Of a DNA stretch of 59,118 nucleotides, positions 2,765-56,256 are shown piece after piece. Position 1 is the first letter of the stretch; each line of letters starts with the position of its first letter. A model generated the notes under the pieces. It was given only the letters and a program-made list of their open reading frames with translations, searched no databases and was not told the origin of the DNA. The position numbers and the translations under genes were made by a program. Location of the stretch: positions 1 to 59,118 of IMG/VR virus record IMGVR_UViG_3300047494_000124; one strand, given 5' to 3'. Origin of the DNA: a virus.

Positions 2765-3553
2765 CTAAGCGGCCTTGTCTTCGTCTTTCAGCTCGATCAT
2801 GCGCGAGAGCAGGTCGGCCGCCGACACCTGCAATTCCTTCTTGGTCTTGGAAAGACCATCCCAGGCGGCGTCCCTGGCGGCGTCCCTGCCGGCATCCCAG
2901 GCGGCGGCCCTGGCGGCGTCCCAGGCGGCGGCCCTGGCGGCATCCCAGGCGGCATCCCAGGCGGCGGCCCTGCCGGCGGCCCAGGCGGCATCCCAGGCGG
3001 CATCCCAGGCGGCGGCCCAGGCGGCGGCCCAGGCGGCATCCCAGGCGGCGGCCCTGGCGGCATCCCAGGCGGCATCCCAGGCGGCATCCCTGGCGGCATC
3101 CCAGGCGGCGTACGCATCTGTGCGGACAGCCTCGAGCGCAGGCATGAGCGACGGGCATTGCGCGAAATCGGTAATCTCGGGCAGTGACGCGAGAAGGTCG
3201 GCCTGCTTGTCCAACTTTGCCAGCCGCAGCCACGCGACAGTGTGGACGCGAATCAGCCAGTCGGCCGACATGGTGGCGCGACGCTGTTCGAGCGCGGGAG
3301 AACCTTTGGTGCCGACAAGGCGCGGGATAAACGGAAGCAAGATGGCGGTGCGCTCATCTTCCGGAAGCCAATCGTTCCAACTGCGCATAAAGGCTGAAAG
3401 AACAGGGCAACTGCATGCTGTATGATCCGACCACGGCTCACGCGCGATATAGGCCACGGCCTCCATGGCGCACATCTCGGCACCTTCGCGGTGAGCGCCG
3501 GCGGCAAGGACTTTCACTTCCGAGAGCCGGTCAGTATCGATTTCAGGCTTCAC
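2765..3553 (-). CDS. Tetrapeptide-repeat protein (AAWD/AARD repeats)
   Basis: A protein of 262 residues. The N-terminal ~150 are ordinary, with a Cys pair 'ACSCPV' and several Trp; they are followed by 21 consecutive tetrapeptides of the type A-A-W-D, in which W alternates with R, D with A, and the second A with G. About 30 charged residues close the protein. The repeats are encoded by perfect-length 12-bp units. A GTG at 3553 is preferred over the GTG at 3589 since AAGGA lies eight bases upstream. A Trp/Arg every fourth residue makes a stripe on a helix, suggesting a long amphipathic or self-associating rod. Function unknown; the gene sits in the early operon. Confidence 0.85.
   Translation of the reverse strand: MKPEIDTDRLSEVKVLAAGAHREGAEMCAMEAVAYIAREPWSDHTACSCPVLSAFMRSWNDWLPEDERTAILLPFIPRLVGTKGSPALEQRRATMSADWLIRVHTVAWLRLAKLDKQADLLASLPEITDFAQCPSLMPALEAVRTDAYAAWDAARDAAWDAAWDAARAAAWDAAWAAAWAAAWDAAWDAAWAAGRAAAWDAAWDAARAAAWDAARAAAWDAGRDAARDAAWDGLSKTKKELQVSAADLLSRMIELKDEDKAA
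2859..3110. repeat. 21 tandem 12-bp repeats
   Basis: The consensus unit on the plus strand is TCCCAGGCGGCR. Twenty-one units follow each other without any insertion. Variation is confined to four positions: T/G at 1, A/T at 5, G/C at 7 and G/A at 12. On the coding (minus) strand three of these change the amino acid (D/A, W/R, A/G) and the fourth is silent. Because the unit length is a multiple of three and lacks stop codons in any frame, several spurious reading frames cover it on both strands. Confidence 0.95.
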
Positions 3554-3612: not shown

Positions 3613-3843
3613 TCAATGGCGGCGTGTTTCACGACGAACAATTCCCAGCGGCGAGACCGTGATGACCTCGCAATACCTGCAGCGGTAGACATCGCCTGGC
3701 CGGCAGGCTCCCAGCCCAAGGCAGATCGTGATCGTCATGGGCTCGCCTTCTTCGGCTGCCGCCAGCTTGGCGGTGGCGATCGCGGCCTGGATTCCTTCTT
3801 CGCGGATAGGCTCGATGGACAGGATATCGCTGTCGTCGCTCAT
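3613..3843 (-). CDS. Small hypothetical protein with one CxxC
   Basis: A 76-residue protein, acidic in its first half, with 'CRYCEVITV' near the end; a single CxxC is too little to assign a zinc fold without dimerisation. The ATG at 3843 overlaps the TGA of the GcrA gene (ATGA), so it is probably co-translated with it; an upstream in-frame GTG at 3849 is less likely. I do not recognise a family. A partner role for GcrA is possible only by position. Confidence 0.7.
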   Translation of the reverse strand: MSDDSDILSIEPIREEGIQAAIATAKLAAAEEGEPMTITICLGLGACRPGDVYRCRYCEVITVSPLGIVRRETRRH

Positions 3844-4370
3844 TCCCACATGCTCACCTGGCCGCGGCGCGCCGGGTAGCGCTTGCCGTTGGCGCGGCGC
3901 CCATCCTGCTCACCAACCTGCCGAGCGCTGGCGGCAAGTGGCTGATAGACGATCTTGCAATGCGCCTCGCAGTAGGGCTTCCCGGTCTTGGGCGCGTTGC
4001 CGCAGAAATGGAATTCACGGTCTTGCGGTTCTCCGATCGGCCAACGGCATGTTCGATCCGTCACCGTCTCCAGCGTCACGAAGGCGCCGTTCTCCAGCAC
4101 CAAGGGCGGCTCAAGCGACATGGTGGGCCTCTGCACCGGAACGGGGGGCTTGGGCTTGGAGGTTTTCACCGGAGGCGCTGGCAGGTCGTTGCGCTGGCCC
4201 TGCCGGCTTGCCCGCTCCGGCAGCTGAAGGCGGTGGACCTTGCCGAGAACCGCTGACCTGGTGGCGCCCGCTATCTGGCGAGCGATCTGGCTGCAGGACT
4301 GGCCACCAGCCCACATGGTCTTGAGCTGCTCGACCTGGTCGTCGTTCCAATCGACGCGCGCTTCGGGCAT
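3840..4370 (-). CDS. gcrA: GcrA-like cell-cycle transcription regulator
   Basis: This 176-residue protein matches GcrA from end to end. The N-terminal helix-turn-helix reads 'W-N-D-D-Q-V-E-Q-L-K' then 'AVLGKVHRL', a Pro/Lys-rich linker follows, and the C-terminal domain has 'CRWPIGEP', 'FHFCG' and 'PYCEAH'. In Caulobacter GcrA binds the sigma-70 housekeeping holoenzyme and activates promoters with GANTC sites methylated by CcrM. A phage copy may redirect host RNA polymerase to phage or S-phase promoters. The start at 4370 overlaps the stop of the upstream gene by one base and gives the family's normal N-terminus. No CcrM-type methylase is visible in this genome, so it would read host methylation. 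Confidence 0.93.
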   Translation of the reverse strand: MPEARVDWNDDQVEQLKTMWAGGQSCSQIARQIAGATRSAVLGKVHRLQLPERASRQGQRNDLPAPPVKTSKPKPPVPVQRPTMSLEPPLVLENGAFVTLETVTDRTCRWPIGEPQDREFHFCGNAPKTGKPYCEAHCKIVYQPLAASARQVGEQDGRRANGKRYPARRGQVSMWE

Positions 4371-5401
4371 CAGCCGGTCCTCCGGGGGATGGCAACGACA
4401 TTCAGGGCCCGGTTGCCGTAATCGACATCTGGGCTTTCCCGCAGGTCCCGCAGGTCCTTCCATTCGTGAAAACGTCCGTTGGGGTCGGCTGGGAAGGCGC
4501 CGCGTGGATGGCCGCCCTGTTCCTCCCAGCGCTGCTGCGCAAGCGACACGAGGTCGGCCGGGGCCGCGCATGACCCGCTGCGTGGCCTGGGCCCGTATTG
4601 CGGGGGCCACCAGCCAGATTCCAACCAACGGGCAAGCCGCTTGCTCCAGCCAGATTCGTCGGTTTGCTCGATCGGCGCGTTGGCCCGCTGCTCGGCAATC
4701 GCCGCCGTCAGTTTTCTGGCATCGCGCTTCGCTTCGAAGGCCTTCCGGAAATACGCCAAGCTGCCAAGGTCGCGCGGGACCGAGCCGGCGGCGCGCCGTT
4801 CCTGGATCGTCGCCAGGATGTCGAGCTCGAAGTCGAAGCCATCGGCCTCGAGCCGGACGAGCTCCTCGATAAACCGAGGACCTCCCCGGCTGGTGGACAG
4901 GTCGAACCCAAGGGCGGTGCCCAGCCTATCGACCTTGCGGATTTTCTCTTGGAACGTGGTTGGCGGCACTACTACTTTGGGTGTGGGTGTAGCTATGGGT
5001 GTTAGTGGCATTTTCTCCTTGGCATCGTCGGACGTCTGATTTTGCTGAGGAATTTCTGTTTTCTCCGGACTTTTCCCGGACTTTTCCCAGCGTTTTCCCG
5101 CCCGTTTCCGCTGCGTTTCCGAGAAGTTTCCCGCCTCTTTCAGGACAGAATCGACTCGGTTGGCCTTCAGCAAACCGTCCTCAACCCAGACCTTCCCCTT
5201 ACGAAGAAGCGATGCCTTTACGACTCGGAGCTGGTTGCCGTGGCACCCAAGCAGGCGCCGCAGAAGGGTGTCATCATCGGGCAGTAATCCATCCCGGCTG
5301 TAGAGTAGATCGATGATCTTGTTGTAGGCCCCGCATTCCTCAAGGGTGAGCTCGGCCATGCCCGCCAGCGCTGCGTCTGGGTCCCGTTTGTAGAATTTCA
5401 T
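4370..5401 (-). CDS. DUF1376-domain replication protein
   Basis: The first ~90 residues of this 343-residue protein are a DUF1376 (YdaU-like) domain: 'MKFYKRDPDAAL', 'LTLEECGAYNKIIDLLY', 'LLRRLLG' and 'RVDSVLKEA'. In phages this domain occurs at the N-terminus of proteins encoded beside the replicative helicase and is thought to act in origin recognition or helicase loading. A basic linker and a Ser/Thr/Pro-rich stretch lead to a C-terminal helical domain. The ATG at 5401 has GGAGGG three bases upstream. It is immediately downstream of the DnaB-type helicase gene, consistent with an initiator/loader pair. Confidence 0.82.
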   Translation of the reverse strand: MKFYKRDPDAALAGMAELTLEECGAYNKIIDLLYSRDGLLPDDDTLLRRLLGCHGNQLRVVKASLLRKGKVWVEDGLLKANRVDSVLKEAGNFSETQRKRAGKRWEKSGKSPEKTEIPQQNQTSDDAKEKMPLTPIATPTPKVVVPPTTFQEKIRKVDRLGTALGFDLSTSRGGPRFIEELVRLEADGFDFELDILATIQERRAAGSVPRDLGSLAYFRKAFEAKRDARKLTAAIAEQRANAPIEQTDESGWSKRLARWLESGWWPPQYGPRPRSGSCAAPADLVSLAQQRWEEQGGHPRGAFPADPNGRFHEWKDLRDLRESPDVDYGNRALNVVAIPRRTG

Positions 5402-5439: not shown

Positions 5440-6939
5440 TCAAAATGGCTTGTTGTCGAGGGCTAGTTGCGGTGCTCGCCCAGGAATGGGCTTCTCTGGA
5501 CGTATGGCAGAGCTCGCTATGTCGATGAAATGCTTTGTTGTTTTGGTCTCGCCCGACCGCTGCTTCAGCACTTCGATCTCGAGCACGTTCCTGCACTTCT
5601 CCAGCTCGAACTCTGCCTTTGATGTCTGACTGTCGTCCTTGGCCGTGCGCAGCGCCGCATTGGCGTAATACTCGCCGCGGTACAGGCCCAGCACGATATC
5701 CGCGTCCTGCTCGATTGAGCCGGAATCCCGGAAGTCAGCCATGAACGGCCGCTTGTCATCCCGCTTTTCGATGTCGCGCGAAAGCTGGGCCAGCAGCACG
5801 ACGATCGATCCCGTGCGCTTCGCTAGGCGCTTGGCCGCGCCGGTGATCTCTGACAGCTCGTCGACCCGGCGGCCGCGGTAGCGATCTTCTGGCATCAGGA
5901 TGTGGAGATGGTCGATCACGATCAGGCGAAGGCCCGGCCTGCGCGCAACTCGAGCACGGGTGATAGCCGCGATCCGACTCATGGTGACACGGTCCTCGCT
6001 GAAAACCGAGATGGGCAGTTCGCGTATCAGGCCATTGGCCAACGTGGCACGCTCCAGCTGGCCGCCGGTGGCGCGCATCTTGACCAGGTCTTCGTAGTGC
6101 AGGGGTTTCAGGCCCTGCTCGATCGCCTGGTCGTAATCCTGGTCGCATATCAAGCGCGCCGATGTTTCACGGGACGGCATCTCGATCGACCACCAGTCGG
6201 CCGGAATTCCCTGCAGGGCAGCTTCACGACATAGGTTTTCCCCCAGGACGCTTTTGCCCATACCGGGGCGACCGCCGGCCACGATCAAATTCTCCGGGAA
6301 CAGGCCACCCAGGACTTGGCCGAGCTCGCCAGAAAGCCGCATGCCGAATTCTTGCTGCGTGACAGCCTGGGCGCTGATCTGTCTCAGCAGGGCATCGCCC
6401 TGGTCACCAGCTCCAAGTTCAACCGTCCTGGAAGTCTGCTTTTCGCTGATCTCGTCGGCGATCCGAACGACACCCTCGAGGGCTGGCATAATCGCCTGGG
6501 GCGTACTGACCCCGCGGCCGGTGATGGCGTCTTCTGCCTCGCCGATCGCCCACACAGCTCGGCGCCTAATCGATAGGTCCAGCACCATCTCCGCCAGCGG
6601 CGTGACGTCCGGGGTAGAGCCGTAATAGCGGGCCAGGTTGGCGAGGTAAAAGGCCGCCTCGCGGCCAGGGGGCGCCTCTTCGCGCTCCAGCTTGTTGATC
6701 TGCTCCACCGCAGGGTTGTGCTTGATCCAGGCGTTCAAGCTAACAGGGCTTATTGCCCGACCCTCTTCGTCAAAGCTGAATATCAGTTCGCAGATAAGCT
6801 GATGAATTTCATGGAAGAAATCGGATGGCTGAACGATGGCGCGGGCCACTGATGTATGGCGTTCCGGATGTGCCAGCATGGCGCCGAGCAAGGTTTGCTC
6901 GGTAGCGTCGTCGTATAGCGGGTGCTTGGCTTCTGACAT
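5440..6939 (-). CDS. dnaB: DnaB-type replicative DNA helicase
   Basis: A 499-residue RecA-fold helicase. An N-terminal helical domain ('EQTLLGAMLAHPE', residues 14-26) is followed by Walker A 'GGRPGMGKS' (222-230), Walker B 'LIVIDHLHIL' (339-348), motif 'LLAQLSR' (382-388) and a C-terminal 'SIEQDADIVLGLYR' close to motif H4. It unwinds DNA ahead of the host polymerase at the replication fork. It is the first gene of the leftward operon, directly downstream of the divergent control region. Length and motif order match phage DnaB proteins; it lacks the primase domain of T7 gp4, so host DnaG is presumably recruited. Confidence 0.96.
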   Translation of the reverse strand: MSEAKHPLYDDATEQTLLGAMLAHPERHTSVARAIVQPSDFFHEIHQLICELIFSFDEEGRAISPVSLNAWIKHNPAVEQINKLEREEAPPGREAAFYLANLARYYGSTPDVTPLAEMVLDLSIRRRAVWAIGEAEDAITGRGVSTPQAIMPALEGVVRIADEISEKQTSRTVELGAGDQGDALLRQISAQAVTQQEFGMRLSGELGQVLGGLFPENLIVAGGRPGMGKSVLGENLCREAALQGIPADWWSIEMPSRETSARLICDQDYDQAIEQGLKPLHYEDLVKMRATGGQLERATLANGLIRELPISVFSEDRVTMSRIAAITRARVARRPGLRLIVIDHLHILMPEDRYRGRRVDELSEITGAAKRLAKRTGSIVVLLAQLSRDIEKRDDKRPFMADFRDSGSIEQDADIVLGLYRGEYYANAALRTAKDDSQTSKAEFELEKCRNVLEIEVLKQRSGETKTTKHFIDIASSAIRPEKPIPGRAPQLALDNKPF

Positions 6940-7354
6940 TGCGGTTCCGGTGATGGACGGAAAGGCCTCGAGGGGCGCCGGAGCCAGCCATCACACTGGT
7001 TCGGCGCCCCGCGAGTTGCACACCAAGGTTTCCCAAGGCTGCTGGCGGCACTCAAGGCGACATGGAACCGATCGGTCAAGGAGGATCGAGGGGAACGAAT
7101 CGCGATTGTGCGCGTGTTGCTGAGTCGTTCCTGTGAAAAGCTCGGGCGCCCGGACTTCCATTCGCGCACCCGGACGCCCAGTGCCGCGGACCGGTTCACC
7201 GCCAGCCCAGGCCGGCCCCTTCTTCAAAAGGCTGGCGGGACCGCTCCCCGGATTTACGCCCATCGCCGGCGTCCTTGACATTCCGCCTATAGCAGGAAAT
7301 GCGAACCGGTGTTATCACGAGCGCTTCCAGTTTTCCTTTTGAGAGGACAGACCG
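6940..7354. other. Divergent intergenic control region
   Basis: There are 415 bases between the leftward helicase operon and the rightward virion operon and I see no convincing gene. The region holds the leader hairpin described separately, a 10-bp palindrome AATCGCGATT at 7098..7107, a 7-bp inverted repeat (GGAACGA at 7092.. and TCGTTCC at 7124..), and two GANTC sites (GAATC at 7097, GAGTC at 7122). A TTGACA at 7275 is an isolated -35 match. It is the natural place for early promoters and possibly an origin; which element does what is not visible. Confidence 0.6.
6972..7010 (-). promoter_or_regulatory. Leader hairpin upstream of the helicase gene
   Basis: GGGGCGCCG and CGGCGCCCC form a perfect 9-bp inverted repeat, extended inward by a G-T pair, an A-T pair, a one-base bulge and CCA/TGG. 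It lies 33 bases upstream of the helicase ATG in the expected 5' untranslated leader. No T-run follows on the minus strand, so it is not a standard terminator. It could control translation or mRNA stability, or be a protein-binding site at DNA level. Confidence 0.55.
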
Positions 7355-7648
7355 ATGGCCAAGAGCAGCGATTCGATGATGGCGGGCGGCGCGGGTATGA
7401 GCCCCCGCAAGGCGATGGGCATGGGCAAAGGCGATTCGGGCGCCGGCAGCGTCGGCTCGCTGGAAACCGTGCAGCGCCCCAAGGCGATCATGGGTGTGAA
7501 GGGCGGCAAGGAGCTGGCCGACCACGAGCGCGGCATCGGCGGGTCGGTCTCCCGCGGCAAAGGTATGCACCCCGGCCAGGCGCAGCCAGACCATGGTTCG
7601 ACGCACCCGATGGGCACCGGAACCGAGCATTACGCCGGCAAGGTCTAA
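7355..7648 (+). CDS. Small Gly/Met-rich basic hypothetical protein
   Basis: A 97-residue protein rich in Gly, Met and Lys and probably disordered. GAGAGGA eight bases before the ATG is a good ribosome binding site. It is the first gene of the rightward virion operon, ahead of the packaging genes, so a role in the virion or in DNA packaging is possible, but no family is recognised. Confidence 0.75.
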   Translation: MAKSSDSMMAGGAGMSPRKAMGMGKGDSGAGSVGSLETVQRPKAIMGVKGGKELADHERGIGGSVSRGKGMHPGQAQPDHGSTHPMGTGTEHYAGKV

Positions 7649-7696: not shown

Positions 7697-8704
7697 ATGG
7701 GCCAGGACGACCAGCAGCAGAACGGCGGTGCCGTCACCCAGGACACCACCCAGCAAGATGCATCGTCCCTCCAGGGCGATGGATCGGAAGTGGGGGCTTC
7801 GGCTCCCGCCTCCCCACCCATCCCCGCCAATCCGTCCCTGCCGGAATTCACCGGTGCGGGAACGGGCAACGGGATGGCCGGCCCGGCTCTTGAACCGCTC
7901 CCCGCCGCCGTCGTGCCGCCGGAAGAGCAGCTGAAGCAGGCCAATCTTTCTGGTGCCAGACCCGACAATCCTTTGCACGATGCCACCAACGCCGCGAAGG
8001 ACAACTTGCCGCCTATCCCGGAGGATTCGGTCCTCGAAGCCCTGCCGGACAGCGACGTCCAGGACTTGGCCCACCTCTACGGCCTGCCGTGCGAATCGCG
8101 AGCCGATGGCATCGCCGGACTGAAGAAGCGCCGCGATGGTGTCGCCCTCACGAGCATGGCACACCCGAACGACGCCTTCACCGACTTCGACCCCACCAAT
8201 CCGCGGGAATTTGATCCAACTGTCGTCCTTCTGCACCTGGAGCGCGATGGCGTCGTGGCCGAGGGTTTCATCGATCCCTTCACCGGCGCCGGCACGCACG
8301 ACCTGCTGGTGGCCCTGCAGGACGAACTGTCCAAGGCTCGCGCCAAGGCCGAGGCTACCGGGCAGCCCATGGCACCCGTCAAGGTGGTGGTGGGCGAAAC
8401 CCCCGACCCCAACGCTCTCAAGCGCCAGCGCGCCGCCGCCCTGGGCCATGACCTTGATCCCGAAACCGGTCGGTGCCGCAAATGCCGAGCCGCCGAATGG
8501 GCCTGCCTGGATGGCGCACCTTGCGAGGTGCGTACCGATGCGGCCAGCGTTGTTGCGGCAGCCGAGGCGGATGGCCAGACGACGGCCGAGCGCGTCGATG
8601 ATTTGAAACACGAGGGCATCACCGTCGAGGAGCCGGCCGAGCCCATCGAAGAGGTGGACCATGGCGAAGCTCACGTCGAAGAAGCGGAACGGCCTGCCGG
8701 GTAA
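7697..8704 (+). CDS. Hypothetical protein with C-terminal zinc-ribbon-like motif
   Basis: A 335-residue protein. The first ~100 residues are Gln/Pro/Ser-rich and probably unstructured; the middle is a mixed alpha/beta region ('PTVVLLHLERDG'), and near residue 260 there is 'CRKCRAAEWACLDGAPC', a four-Cys zinc-binding pattern. The C-terminus is acidic. The ATG at 7697 is preferred to the GTG six bases upstream since GGAGG is spaced five bases from it. It precedes the terminase genes; a head or packaging accessory role is inferred from position only. Its 3' end overlaps the next gene by 44 bases. Confidence 0.75.
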   Translation: MGQDDQQQNGGAVTQDTTQQDASSLQGDGSEVGASAPASPPIPANPSLPEFTGAGTGNGMAGPALEPLPAAVVPPEEQLKQANLSGARPDNPLHDATNAAKDNLPPIPEDSVLEALPDSDVQDLAHLYGLPCESRADGIAGLKKRRDGVALTSMAHPNDAFTDFDPTNPREFDPTVVLLHLERDGVVAEGFIDPFTGAGTHDLLVALQDELSKARAKAEATGQPMAPVKVVVGETPDPNALKRQRAAALGHDLDPETGRCRKCRAAEWACLDGAPCEVRTDAASVVAAAEADGQTTAERVDDLKHEGITVEEPAEPIEEVDHGEAHVEEAERPAG

Positions 8705-9042: not shown

Positions 9043-9588
9043 ATGGGGGCACCCCGCAAGTCGATCCCGCCAACAGCGAAGCGATCGCGGACATTCGGAA
9101 AAGGTGGCGGTCGCCCGGCCGGCTTCCGCGACGAAATGATCGGCCAGGCCACGGAGCTGGTGGCGCGGGGCTTCACCGATGCCCAGATCGCTGATTTCTT
9201 TGACGTAAACCCATCGACCCTTTGGCGCTGGAAGCAGCATGTCCCGGTCTTCGGGAAGGCGTTCCTGCGCGGCGAGGAGCAGATGCAGGCTGTCATCGAG
9301 GCTTCCATGCTCCACCGCGCCACCGGCTACAGCCACCAGTCGGTCAAGATATTCCCGCCGCGCGAGATCGTGACGGGTCGCGGAAAGAACAAAAAAATCA
9401 AGCTGTCAGAGCCGATCGTGGTGAAGTTCGAGGAGCACTTCCCGCCCGACAAGGGCGCGGCCGAGCTGCTGCTGCGCAAGCTGGACCCCGCCGTCTACAA
9501 CCCGCGCATGACGGTGGTGGGCGACCCCAAGGCGCCGGTCCAGTTCATCATGCAGAACCGCCCCCCGAAGGAGAAAAAGCATGGGTAA
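9043..9588 (+). CDS. terS: Terminase small subunit
   Basis: This 181-residue protein has an N-terminal helix-turn-helix ('ARGFTDAQIADFFDVNPSTL', then 'RWKQHVP') for binding phage DNA, and the conserved 'HRATGYSH' and 'EHFPPD' segments of phage small terminase subunits. It recognises the packaging site and regulates the large subunit. The large subunit gene follows after one short gene, which supports the call. The terminator ahead of it implies a separate promoter or antitermination. Confidence 0.88.
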   Translation: MGAPRKSIPPTAKRSRTFGKGGGRPAGFRDEMIGQATELVARGFTDAQIADFFDVNPSTLWRWKQHVPVFGKAFLRGEEQMQAVIEASMLHRATGYSHQSVKIFPPREIVTGRGKNKKIKLSEPIVVKFEEHFPPDKGAAELLLRKLDPAVYNPRMTVVGDPKAPVQFIMQNRPPKEKKHG

Positions 9589-9871: not shown

Positions 9872-11341
9872 ATGCCCCAGATCAATTTCGACTATGCCCA
9901 AGTCCCGACGATCGGCCGCTTCAGCAATTCGGATGCTTTCATCCGGGCGCTGATCGGCCCCTTCGGTTCCGGCAAGTCGTCTGGCTGCGTGGCGGAATTC
10001 CCATACCGGGCTGGCATGCAGGCGCCGGACCCGGCCGACGGTAAGCGCCGGACCCGCTGGGCCGTGGTGCGCAACACCTATCGCCAGCTCGAAGACACCA
10101 CGATCCGGACTTTTCACCAGTGGCTGCCGCCCGGCTATTTCGGGCGCTGGTATTCGACCGACCATCGCTATGTCGTGAACGCTTTCCCCGGCATCGAATT
10201 TGAGGTGCTGTTCCGGGCCCTCGACAAGCCCGACCACGTCAAAAACCTGCTCTCCCTGGACCTGACAGGCGGCTGGGTGAACGAGGCGCGCGAGGTGCCA
10301 TGGGCGATCATCGAGGCCCTGATGGGCCGGTGTGGCCGCTATCCTGGCACGATCAACGGTGGCTGCACCTGGTCCGGCATCTGGATGGACACCAACCCGC
10401 CAGACATCGACTCGAAGTGGTACAAATTCTTCGAGGAAGAGGAATGGCTTAAAGACTTTCTTGAGATGCGGCAGGCGAATGCCCTGCCGCCCGGCATCGT
10501 CCACCCGGAGGACTTTGCCGCCATCTTTCACCAGCCGTCCGGCCTGTCGCCCAACGCCGAGAACATTGCGAACCTGCCTGTCGGCTATTACCAGCGCCTG
10601 GGTATCGGCAAGACCAACGAGTGGAAAAAGGTCTATATCCGGGGCGAATACGGCTTCGTATCCGACAACAAGACCGTCTTCTCGGAATACAAAGATGAGG
10701 TCCACCAGCGCGCCCGCGACCCGGTTCCGGGTCTGACGATCGAGCGGAACTGGGATTTCGGCCTGACGCCGGCGGTTTCCTTCTCCTGCGTGCTCCCGAC
10801 CGGGGAATGGCTGATCTTCGACGAGATGATCGCCACCGAGATGGGAATCGACCGCTTCAGCGACCAGGTGCTGGAACATTGTGCCAAGGCCTTCAAGGGC
10901 CAGGTCAGCTTCGACGACATCGGCGACCCGTCTGGGGAATCCCGCAAGGATACCGATGAAAACACCTGCTTTGCCATCATGCAGGGGAAGGGCATCCAGA
11001 TTTACGGCGGGGAACAAAACCTGCAGATGCGCCTGGAATCCCTGCGCCTTCCGCTAACCCGGCTAGGCTCCGGTGGCGAGCCCCGCCTGATCCTGCATCC
11101 TCGCTGCAAGACGATTCGCAAGGCCTTCCTGGGCGGCTATTACTACCGGCGCCTGGCGACCAATGCCGAGCGCTACTCCACCGAGCCTGAGAAGAATCAC
11201 CCTTACTCCGATCTGATGGACGGGCTGGAATACCGAGCGGTCCAGCATTTCGGGGCTCTCTTGACCCGCGATGTCCAGCAGGATCAATCTCCCCAGCGTC
11301 CGCGCGACGACACGGGGCGGTCCAAAGTGACGGGGTATTGA
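9872..11341 (+). CDS. terL: Terminase large subunit
   Basis: The ATPase and nuclease that pumps DNA into the prohead. Residues 29-37 'GPFGSGKSS' are Walker A; 'LTGGWVNEAREV' around residue 138 provides Walker B and the catalytic Glu. The C-terminal half has the RNase H-like nuclease start 'RNWDFGLTPAVSF' and 'FDDIGDPSG'. Length (489) is normal for the family. It forms a coupled cluster with the following small genes (TGATG at its end). Confidence 0.96.
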   Translation: MPQINFDYAQVPTIGRFSNSDAFIRALIGPFGSGKSSGCVAEFPYRAGMQAPDPADGKRRTRWAVVRNTYRQLEDTTIRTFHQWLPPGYFGRWYSTDHRYVVNAFPGIEFEVLFRALDKPDHVKNLLSLDLTGGWVNEAREVPWAIIEALMGRCGRYPGTINGGCTWSGIWMDTNPPDIDSKWYKFFEEEEWLKDFLEMRQANALPPGIVHPEDFAAIFHQPSGLSPNAENIANLPVGYYQRLGIGKTNEWKKVYIRGEYGFVSDNKTVFSEYKDEVHQRARDPVPGLTIERNWDFGLTPAVSFSCVLPTGEWLIFDEMIATEMGIDRFSDQVLEHCAKAFKGQVSFDDIGDPSGESRKDTDENTCFAIMQGKGIQIYGGEQNLQMRLESLRLPLTRLGSGGEPRLILHPRCKTIRKAFLGGYYYRRLATNAERYSTEPEKNHPYSDLMDGLEYRAVQHFGALLTRDVQQDQSPQRPRDDTGRSKVTGY

Positions 11342-54591: not shown

Positions 54592-54604
54592 GGCGCTCCA
54601 AAAA

Positions 54605-54799
54605 TTATTCGTTGATCGTGATAGGGCGCGGCACGCCCACACCGTCCGGAAAGCTCTCCAGCTCACGCTGGCCATGTGCACCGATTCGGCAATAGACCTC
54701 GGTTCGGCGCTGCCGGCGCGTAAATAGCCGCCCTCCAATAGCGGTAGGAAAGGCAGCATTTACCACGGTTGCGACGGGTGCTTTTTGTGAGTCGGTCAT
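54605..54799 (-). CDS. Small hypothetical protein
   Basis: Sixty-four residues with a beta-like end ('TEVYCRIGAHGQRELESF'). The ATG overlaps the repressor stop (ATGA). Not recognised; co-expression with the repressor suggests an early regulatory role at most. Confidence 0.65.
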   Translation of the reverse strand: MTDSQKAPVATVVNAAFPTAIGGRLFTRRQRRTEVYCRIGAHGQRELESFPDGVGVPRPITINE

Positions 54800-54999
54800 T
54801 CCTCGGTCTCGGCCAGGCGTTTCATGGAAAGACCGAGGGCGCCCCCCAGCTTGCACACGGTTCGAAAGCCAGGGTCCTTAACGTGCCCTGTCTCAATCTG
54901 GGAGATCACCGAATTGTTGATTCCGGTGCGCCGCTCCAGCTCGCGCAGGGACCATTTCTTCAGCTCACGGGAAAGCTGGATCAGTTCGCCGAGCTTCAA
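54796..54999 (-). CDS. Cro/CI-type helix-turn-helix repressor
   Basis: A 67-residue, one-domain XRE-family protein: 'GELIQLSRELKKWSLRELE', 'TGINNSVISQIETGHVKDPG' (the HTH), 'RTVCKLGGALGLSMKRL'. The TTG start is chosen because GGAGGAAAC lies immediately upstream and the resulting protein starts at the usual helix 1; longer starts up to 55077 exist. It has no oligomerisation or LexA-like cleavage domain, so Cro-like action is more likely than inducible CI. It probably controls its own and the divergent DUF932 operon through the palindrome upstream. Confidence 0.88.
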   Translation of the reverse strand: MKLGELIQLSRELKKWSLRELERRTGINNSVISQIETGHVKDPGFRTVCKLGGALGLSMKRLAETEE

Positions 55000-55018
55000 A
55001 GTTTCCTCCAAGGATTGC

Positions 55019-55042
55019 GCGGAAAATAATATCCGCTTGACA
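55019..55042. promoter_or_regulatory. Operator/promoter region of the divergent repressor switch
   Basis: An imperfect 18-bp palindrome GCGGAAAATAATATCCGC (55019..55036) abuts TTGACA at 55037..55042, a perfect -35 for the rightward operon (its -10 near 55061 is weak). On the minus strand the palindrome contains TATTAT, a -10 for the repressor gene, starting transcription about 20 bases before its start codon. Binding there would block both promoters. Confidence 0.55.
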
Positions 55043-55155
55043 ATCCGAGCGTAGGCCGCTCTGAATGCGCGGGTCAAGGGGACAACCCCGAGACATCAAA
55101 CCCCTCGTGGGGCCTGCGGTGGTCGCGGGTAGCGAGCGGACCAAGGAGACTGAAA

Positions 55156-56256
55156 ATGAAGACTGGTAAATCCATCGTACAGCTGGCCCAGGAAATCGAA
55201 CGCCAGAACGGCAGCAAGCGGGACTTCATCGTCGATACGAAGGCCCTGCACATGAACCCCACCCAGGGGCTCGACGACGCCAACCACAGCATCGAACTCG
55301 AAGTCGGCAACCAGCTGGCCTTCGGCATCAACTCCATCGGGCATCGCCAGATCGGCGAGCATGTCGGGGTTCCGGCCAAGTATTACGACCGGATGCTGCA
55401 GCACTCGCCGGCCCTCCTGGCCCATAACGTCAATCACTGGTTCGGCGCCGAGCCGGGCCAGCGCATGGTCCGGACCATGGACGGCAATGCCCGGGCCTTC
55501 CTGTCGGACCGCTATCGCCCGCTCGAGAATGTCGACCTGGCGGAAGCGGTGATCCCGATCCTTCACGACCTGAAGATCGAGGTCATCTCGTGCGAAATCA
55601 CCGAATCGCGCCTCTACCTGAAGGGTGTCGACCAGCGGGTGGTGCGCACGATCAACGCCCGCCGGCAGGTCGATGGCCAGCTGGTCACGGCCGACGACGT
55701 CTGCCCGTCCATCTGCATCTCGAATTCCGAGGTGGGCATGGGCGCGCTGTCGATCGAGGTGGGCATGTTCACCCACGCCTGCAAGAACATGATGCTGTTC
55801 CGGGAATCCTCGCTCCGGAAGTACCATGTGGGCGGCAAGCACGAAGCCTTCGGCGACCAGCTGCGTGAGCTTATGTCGGACCAGACCCGCAAGGTCACCG
55901 ACGCAGCCACCTGGCTGCAGGTCCGGGACGTCGTGCGCGGTGCGTTCGATGAGCAGCGCTTCACCGCCAACATCTCCGCCGTCCAGGAGATGACGCAGCA
56001 GAGGCTGGTCGGGGACCCGGTCAAGGCGATCGAGCTCACCGCTCGCCGCCTTAACCTGGCGGAGGGCGAGCAGAAGTCCGTCCTGCGCCACCTGATCGAG
56101 GGCGGCGACCTGTCCCGCTACGGCGTCTTCAACTCCATCACCCGCGCCGCGGAGGACGTGACGTCTTACGACAGGGCTACAGACCTGGAGCGCGCTGGCG
56201 GCATGGTCCTGGCCCTGGCGGCCAACGACTGGAAGGCGATCGCCGAGGCTGCGTAG
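55156..56256 (+). CDS. DUF932 family protein
   Basis: A 366-residue protein of the DUF932 (phage/plasmid-like) family: 'GHRQIGEHVGVPAKYYDRM', 'ARAFLSDRYRPLENVDL', 'CPSICISNSEVGMGALS' and a helical C-terminal half. Members are encoded by many plasmids and phages, often early and highly expressed; function is unknown, possibly nucleic-acid binding or anti-defence. AAGGAGACT precedes the ATG. It heads the rightward accessory operon facing the repressor. Confidence 0.88.
   Translation: MKTGKSIVQLAQEIERQNGSKRDFIVDTKALHMNPTQGLDDANHSIELEVGNQLAFGINSIGHRQIGEHVGVPAKYYDRMLQHSPALLAHNVNHWFGAEPGQRMVRTMDGNARAFLSDRYRPLENVDLAEAVIPILHDLKIEVISCEITESRLYLKGVDQRVVRTINARRQVDGQLVTADDVCPSICISNSEVGMGALSIEVGMFTHACKNMMLFRESSLRKYHVGGKHEAFGDQLRELMSDQTRKVTDAATWLQVRDVVRGAFDEQRFTANISAVQEMTQQRLVGDPVKAIELTARRLNLAEGEQKSVLRHLIEGGDLSRYGVFNSITRAAEDVTSYDRATDLERAGGMVLALAANDWKAIAEAA

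Follow-up and report, generated by a model that had tools for sequence, protein, structure and literature searches.

An inverted repeat with paired GANTC sites at the start of a gcrA-bearing phage replication operon, a candidate element for GcrA-dependent control

A phage genome from IMG/VR carries, in the non-coding gap ahead of its replication operon, a 40-bp inverted repeat (GGAACGAATC-N20-GAGTCGTTCC, 7092-7131) with one YGAKTCG motif in each arm, and the third gene of that operon encodes GcrA. The analysis established the genes, the sites and the repeat, as well as the conservation of the repeat in a distant relative and its co-occurrence with gcrA. On this comparative evidence, the repeat may be a conserved regulatory element serving methylation-dependent control of the early replication operon by GcrA and sigma-70, a reading to which we assign a rough probability of 0.5.

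The stretch of DNA that was analysed (the window) is the whole linear IMG/VR virus record IMGVR_UViG_3300047494_000124 (59,118 bp, labelled G000), in which a simple codon-usage gene caller predicted 81 genes. The relevant features are the following:

3840 to 4370, minus strand: gcrA (176 aa), gene 3 of the leftward operon (PF07750, phmmer, alignment A3).
4370 to 5401, minus strand: DUF1376 primosomal-type protein, gene 2 of the leftward operon (PF07120; phrog_9327, primosomal protein).
5440 to 6939, minus strand: DnaB-like replicative helicase, gene 1 of the leftward operon (PF03796/PF00772, phrog_19).
6940 to 7354, no strand: non-coding divergent gap of 415 bp from gene calling, the control region that separates the replication operon from the packaging and structural genes on the rightward side.
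7092 to 7101, plus strand: left arm GGAACGAATC, containing GAATC 7097-7101 (inverted-repeat search, motif scan); counterpart at 2884-2894 in the relative L064.
7105 to 7110, minus strand: possible -10 hexamer CACAAT of a putative leftward promoter, read from the sequence.
7122 to 7131, plus strand: right arm GAGTCGTTCC, containing GAGTC 7122-7126 (inverted-repeat search, motif scan); counterpart at 2913-2922 in L064.
7355 to 7648, plus strand: first rightward gene, a small conserved protein with an MSPRKAM motif (homologues in L004, L015, L064 and L277-L280).
9043 to 9588, rightward: terS.
9872 to 11341, rightward: terL, with structural genes also on the rightward side.

The gcrA and DUF1376 genes overlap by one base, and the leftward operon continues with further genes past gcrA. 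The initial annotation had described gcrA as next to the GANTC sites, which is loose, as the gene lies 2.7 kb away, yet it is the third gene of the operon that starts there. Elsewhere in the window, 2765-3553 encodes a protein rich in long alanine/tryptophan/aspartate repeats (AAWDAA) with related phrog families, and a tRNA-Pro called by ARAGORN inside its gene (2912-2990) is probably false. A second regulatory region (54592-55155) holds a Cro/CI-type HTH gene (54796-54999, minus strand) and, facing away from it, an operon at 55156. A TTGACA hexamer lies between the two, and YGAKTCG motifs are present at 54682 and 54788, on the far side of the HTH gene.

The two GANTC sites were recovered exactly where the initial annotation had placed them, with starts 25 bases apart and both inside the divergent gap. 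Each fits the Y-GANTC-R context claimed for it and also the stricter YGAKTCG (CGATTCG at 7096-7102 on the minus strand, TGAGTCG at 7121-7127 on the plus strand), the extended motif described for methylated promoters that GcrA activates (quoted in PMC7987155). The control region thereby contains the motif expected of a GcrA-activated promoter, and the two copies form the closest pair among the 35 YGAKTCG of the window genome. A density of GANTC raised above that elsewhere was not found: the gap has 2 versus 0.84 expected (P=0.20, window alone), and close GANTC pairs show no excess in the window (4 seen versus 5.8 expected). Genome-wide, GANTC is under-represented, with 119 occurrences versus 250, 213 and 154 expected under order-1, -2 and -3 Markov models, and CTNAG and TTNAA are depleted equally. 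The observed/expected ratio is 0.78 in the window, 0.68 in the GcrA-encoding relative G008 and 0.41-0.48 in three GcrA-less relatives that are partial records (G031, G032 and G005), so that the two phages with a GcrA avoid GANTC less strongly than these three do. The pair at 7097/7122 stands above chance because it is conserved in a distant phage, and not because of the window statistics.

Searches with TerL recovered relatives in IMG/VR, plus prophages in Gluconacetobacter and others. One IMG/VR relative, UViG_3300036830_000246 (61,680 bp; L064/G008), shares the divergent layout with the window, with TerL 63% and DnaB 28-30% identical. Its dnaB gap (2820-3082, 263 bp) contains six GANTC and is the densest spot of that genome (P 3e-5), although one of the six (2992) falls in a tRNA-like stretch; three of the 16 genome-wide YGAKTCG lie here within 44 bp, the next closest pair being 593 bp apart. 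Remnants resembling a T-arm and a D-arm were noted at 2970-3080 of this gap, where no tRNA was called, possibly an old attachment site. Two of the YGAKTCG lie inside an inverted repeat, GGGAGAACGAATCGCTA-N13-TAGTGATTCGTTCTCCC, with arms of 17 nt that are 94% complementary, and the third, together with two further GANTC, flanks the dyad outside the arms. The repeat core reads AACGAATCGC...TGATTCGTT in the relative and AACGAATCGC...TGAGTCGTT in the window, with GANTC spacings of 26 and 25, and the right-arm cores differ solely at the N of GANTC (GATTC and GAGTC, respectively), both within the K of YGAKTCG. When the window was searched with the repeat of L064, the top-scoring place was the gap 6940-7354 (score 26, next 20), and with one L064 arm alone none of 10,000 random 415-bp sequences reached a score of 26. 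A whole-gap local alignment with lenient scoring gave p of about 0.007, the arm-specific test being much stronger. The candidate -10 ends three bases before the left-arm GANTC on the minus strand, and the relative has GAAAAT in the equivalent position; no good -35 for this hexamer was found in either phage, and a scan for consensus sigma-70 promoters found none.

The distribution of the element was assessed in 16 records, 15 of the terminase clade and G002, a GcrA phage of another group. The pattern AACGANTC-N12..28-GANTCGTT was present in two of them, the window and G008, and the reversed control in none; G002 lacks it. Within the terminase clade, it occurs in both GcrA-encoding records and in none of the 13 GcrA-less ones (Fisher 0.0095, with records that may be incomplete and are non-independent). 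The sister of the window in the TerL tree, L277 (72%, support 100/100), has no gcrA, no dnaB relative and no element, and the element is also absent from L278 (TerL 60%). Two GcrA-less records, G032 and G005, have a dnaB relative with a divergent gap at the operon start, containing 1 and 0 GANTC, respectively; their helicases are about as similar to the window DnaB as that of G008, yet both are without the element. Since L277 is missing gcrA, dnaB and element alike, while G032 and G005 keep dnaB without GcrA or the element, the element tracks the early module that bears gcrA, and neither the terminase nor dnaB by itself. None of 385 Alphaproteobacterial genomes contained it, and thus it is no copy of a common host promoter. 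A loose form of the dyad pattern matched 102 stretches in IMG/VR, of which 80 were listed. These wider matches were rejected as kin, as among those examined only the L064 contig shares the terminase-side genes of the window; two had a weak dnaB or DUF1376 match and many lay in coding-like or low-G+C DNA. The strict pattern matched five stretches, one being the L064 contig and the other four having neither shared genes nor GcrA.

The call of a full-length GcrA homologue at 3840-4370 was borne out. The protein scores 133.4 bits against PF07750 (cut-off 26.9), with residues 7-150 aligned to profile positions 2-153 of 155, and phmmer matched it to the full-length Caulobacter GcrA 7ye1 (E 2e-26), as well as to the solved DNA-binding and sigma-interacting domains (5yiu/5yix). 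In an alignment with 7ye1 and other phage GcrAs, the N-terminal DNA-binding domain (TRNAV.GKVHRL region) is present, and so is the C-terminal sigma-interacting motif CRWPIGEP..FCG..PYC..H (family pattern C.WPIG.P, FCG, PYC..H). Judged by these alignments, the family member is complete, and its motifs for DNA binding and sigma binding are intact. Its nearest relatives are chromosomal GcrAs (48-54% identity, 190 Alphaproteobacterial genomes), compared with 27-34% for other phage GcrAs (alignment A3) and at most 41% in the best-matching segment for phages of IMG/VR, and a weakly supported GcrA tree places it among the chromosomal proteins, apart from those of phiCbK and G008. Based on these relatives and this placement, we read the window GcrA as a separate capture from a host. 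The GcrA of G008 (L148 14834-15418, equal to G008 54834-55418) is very divergent and not a clear orthologue in the tree. Two DNA-binding-like repeats stand in tandem in this protein and FDCG replaces WPIG; it may bind DNA while having lost its contact with sigma. The gene shares the strand of dnaB and, assuming that the two ends of the record join, lies about 9 kb past it, an ORF of opposite orientation separating the two. In the phage collection, GcrA was matched in 20 records, mostly phiCbK-like Caulobacter phages. The control search with this family, known from Alphaproteobacteria, unexpectedly also matched a genome named Sulfolobus acidocaldarius.

Beyond this clade, a general rule that GcrA phages cluster GANTC in non-coding DNA was rejected, the non-coding/coding ratio being 1.33 in 17 further GcrA-phage loci versus 1.37 in GcrA-less relatives, and a published survey of phages describes GcrA sites without positional bias (PMC9437464). 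At the starts of gcrA operons, five YGAKTCG were counted versus 1.1 expected (P 0.006), two in the window, two in L260 and one in L259; with the window removed, three versus about 0.95 is not significant at 5%, and in most other GcrA phages the start of the operon is free of YGAKTCG. In L260, an unrelated GcrA phage, a CI-like repressor gene is divergent from the gcrA operon (9087-9172), and two YGAKTCG (9099 and 9119, 20 bp apart) adjoin the divergent start of that operon; depending on the choice of start codon, they fall at the extreme start of the CI ORF or ahead of it. Four more GANTC cluster at 7863-7894 of the same locus. Tandem GAACGATTCGTT repeats were seen at 13025-13061 of L181 and 91-127 of L184, with 6-7 GANTC nearby and, in L184, at the end of a DUF1376 gene; they are probably a coding repeat.

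Caulobacter GcrA acts as a cofactor of sigma-70 and is brought to promoters that CcrM has methylated (review PMC7403470); at one such promoter, fully methylated, it protects the DNA from -35 to -10 (PMC3667746). By analogy, the phage, holding a captured host-type GcrA within its early replication operon (dnaB, DUF1376, gcrA), would have both GANTC sites methylated by host CcrM once its DNA enters the cell. GcrA and sigma-70 RNA polymerase would then be recruited to the element, host GcrA first and phage GcrA added later, and would activate, or gate, leftward transcription of dnaB, DUF1376 and gcrA, with the direction of this effect inferred, like the methylation, binding and promoter activity. 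Activation of gcrA by its own product could create a feed-forward loop, linking phage replication with the state of methylation and of GcrA in the host. No N6/N4-methyltransferase of PF01555, which we take to be the fold family of CcrM, is encoded in G000, G008 or G002, and methylation would therefore have to be supplied by the host. The initial annotation had proposed that phage transcription, early or late, may be timed to host methylation, or that the phage GcrA may flood host S-phase promoters. Late timing is unlikely because the genes downstream of the element are a replication module. The proposal of methylation timing stands in part, being favored indirectly by a conserved element at the start of the gcrA operon, by its YGAKTCG match and by its restriction to the two GcrA-encoding records of the clade, and weakened by a GANTC density that is not raised in the window, by the lack of a cluster in most GcrA phages and by the lack of a consensus promoter. 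Against GcrA as the reader of the element, only two phages carry it, the perfect 17-bp dyad exceeds what GANTC sites need and could serve another protein, and the G008 GcrA is divergent, has no WPIG and lies outside one uninterrupted operon with dnaB.

The explanation that competes best takes the repeat for an operator bound by some other transcription factor, of phage or host origin and without relation to GcrA, with GANTC falling in its recognition sequence by coincidence. We consider it unlikely on balance, even though the strong dyad symmetry, chiefly that of the L064 arms, speaks for it, as do the CI/Cro-type HTH protein encoded by the window and the fact that the GcrAs of the window and G008 are not clear orthologues. 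An operator of this kind would leave several observations aside: within the shared core, the right arms differ only at the degenerate N of GANTC; G008 has its third YGAKTCG and two GANTC beside the dyad; GcrA-less relatives of the same layout are missing the element; and the arm GAACGANTC is absent near the HTH gene and from the divergent gap 55000-55155. A CI/Cro operator was also rejected as a candidate, GAACGA/TCGTTC not being repeated near the repressor gene (54592-55155).

A role in DNA processing has a small probability in our estimate, whether the repeat next to dnaB is an origin of replication or a hairpin for primosome assembly, or is a cos/pac site upstream of the terminase genes. 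The repeat does adjoin the helicase gene, 1.9 kb upstream of terS, and a single strand of it folds into a hairpin, with z of -2.2 for the window and -7.0 for L064, but the fold is weak in the window and no Rfam family matches the element. Moreover, the repeat tracks neither dnaB, as the similarly related helicases of G032 and G005 are without it, nor the terminase. A cos/pac site was rejected on this ground, the element being present in L064 (63%) and missing from L277 (72%, sister) and L278 (60%). Finally, that the sites are two functionless GANTC in a 415-bp gap fits the window-only statistics given above but is very improbable, as the same 14-16 defining bases, spaced almost identically, are found again in the homologous gap that a distant phage has but in none of the remaining records among the 16, and as the reversed pattern gave no match and the random sequences none as good for one arm; chance is contradicted for the element as a whole and is possible only for its link to GcrA.

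Returning to the reading of the repeat as a GcrA/sigma-70 element, a more specific version is that the phage lineage built its own GcrA/CcrM-responsive switch, in which the phage-encoded GcrA reads two extended GANTC sites, inverted relative to each other, at the promoter of the replication operon, and replication starts only during the appropriate methylation phase of the host cell cycle. We put this forward tentatively. If true, the phage would possess an epigenetic timer made of a captured host regulator and a dedicated cis element, and DNA methylation would be used by a phage as a regulatory signal and not as protection from restriction. Phage GcrA has been known since 2012 (phiCbK) with a proposed role, for which the cited literature contains no experimental test. 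A short, conserved cis element that stands at the replication operon of a phage and contains the GcrA motif from the literature offers a concrete test of that role, namely, whether phage or host GcrA reads methylated phage DNA to time phage replication.

Among known systems, phiCbK and its relatives encode the GcrA homologue gp222, which, like the window GcrA, is a phage-encoded PF07750 protein and has been suggested to boost replication functions of the host (Gill et al. 2012, PMC3556154). However, it is only 28% identical to the window GcrA, its carriers are phages of another type of about 200 kb, and, unlike the window, the phiCbK gcrA operon lacks both YGAKTCG and GANTC in the 250 bp preceding its start. 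The relative L064/G008 resembles the window in its divergent dnaB gap, inverted GANTC repeat and encoded GcrA-family protein, and differs in its nearly perfect 17-bp arms, the six GANTC in the gap and a divergent GcrA far down the strand of dnaB. The GcrA/CcrM sigma-70 promoters of Caulobacter crescentus (PMC3667746) have in common with the window two YGAKTCG in the promoter region of replication genes, putative in the window, and the presence of GcrA; unlike them, the phage sites form an inverted repeat and are 25-26 bp apart. In CtrA-regulated phage promoters and lytic deferment (PMC9437464), the regulator is another one, and the sites of a host cell-cycle regulator are likewise found in phage control DNA.
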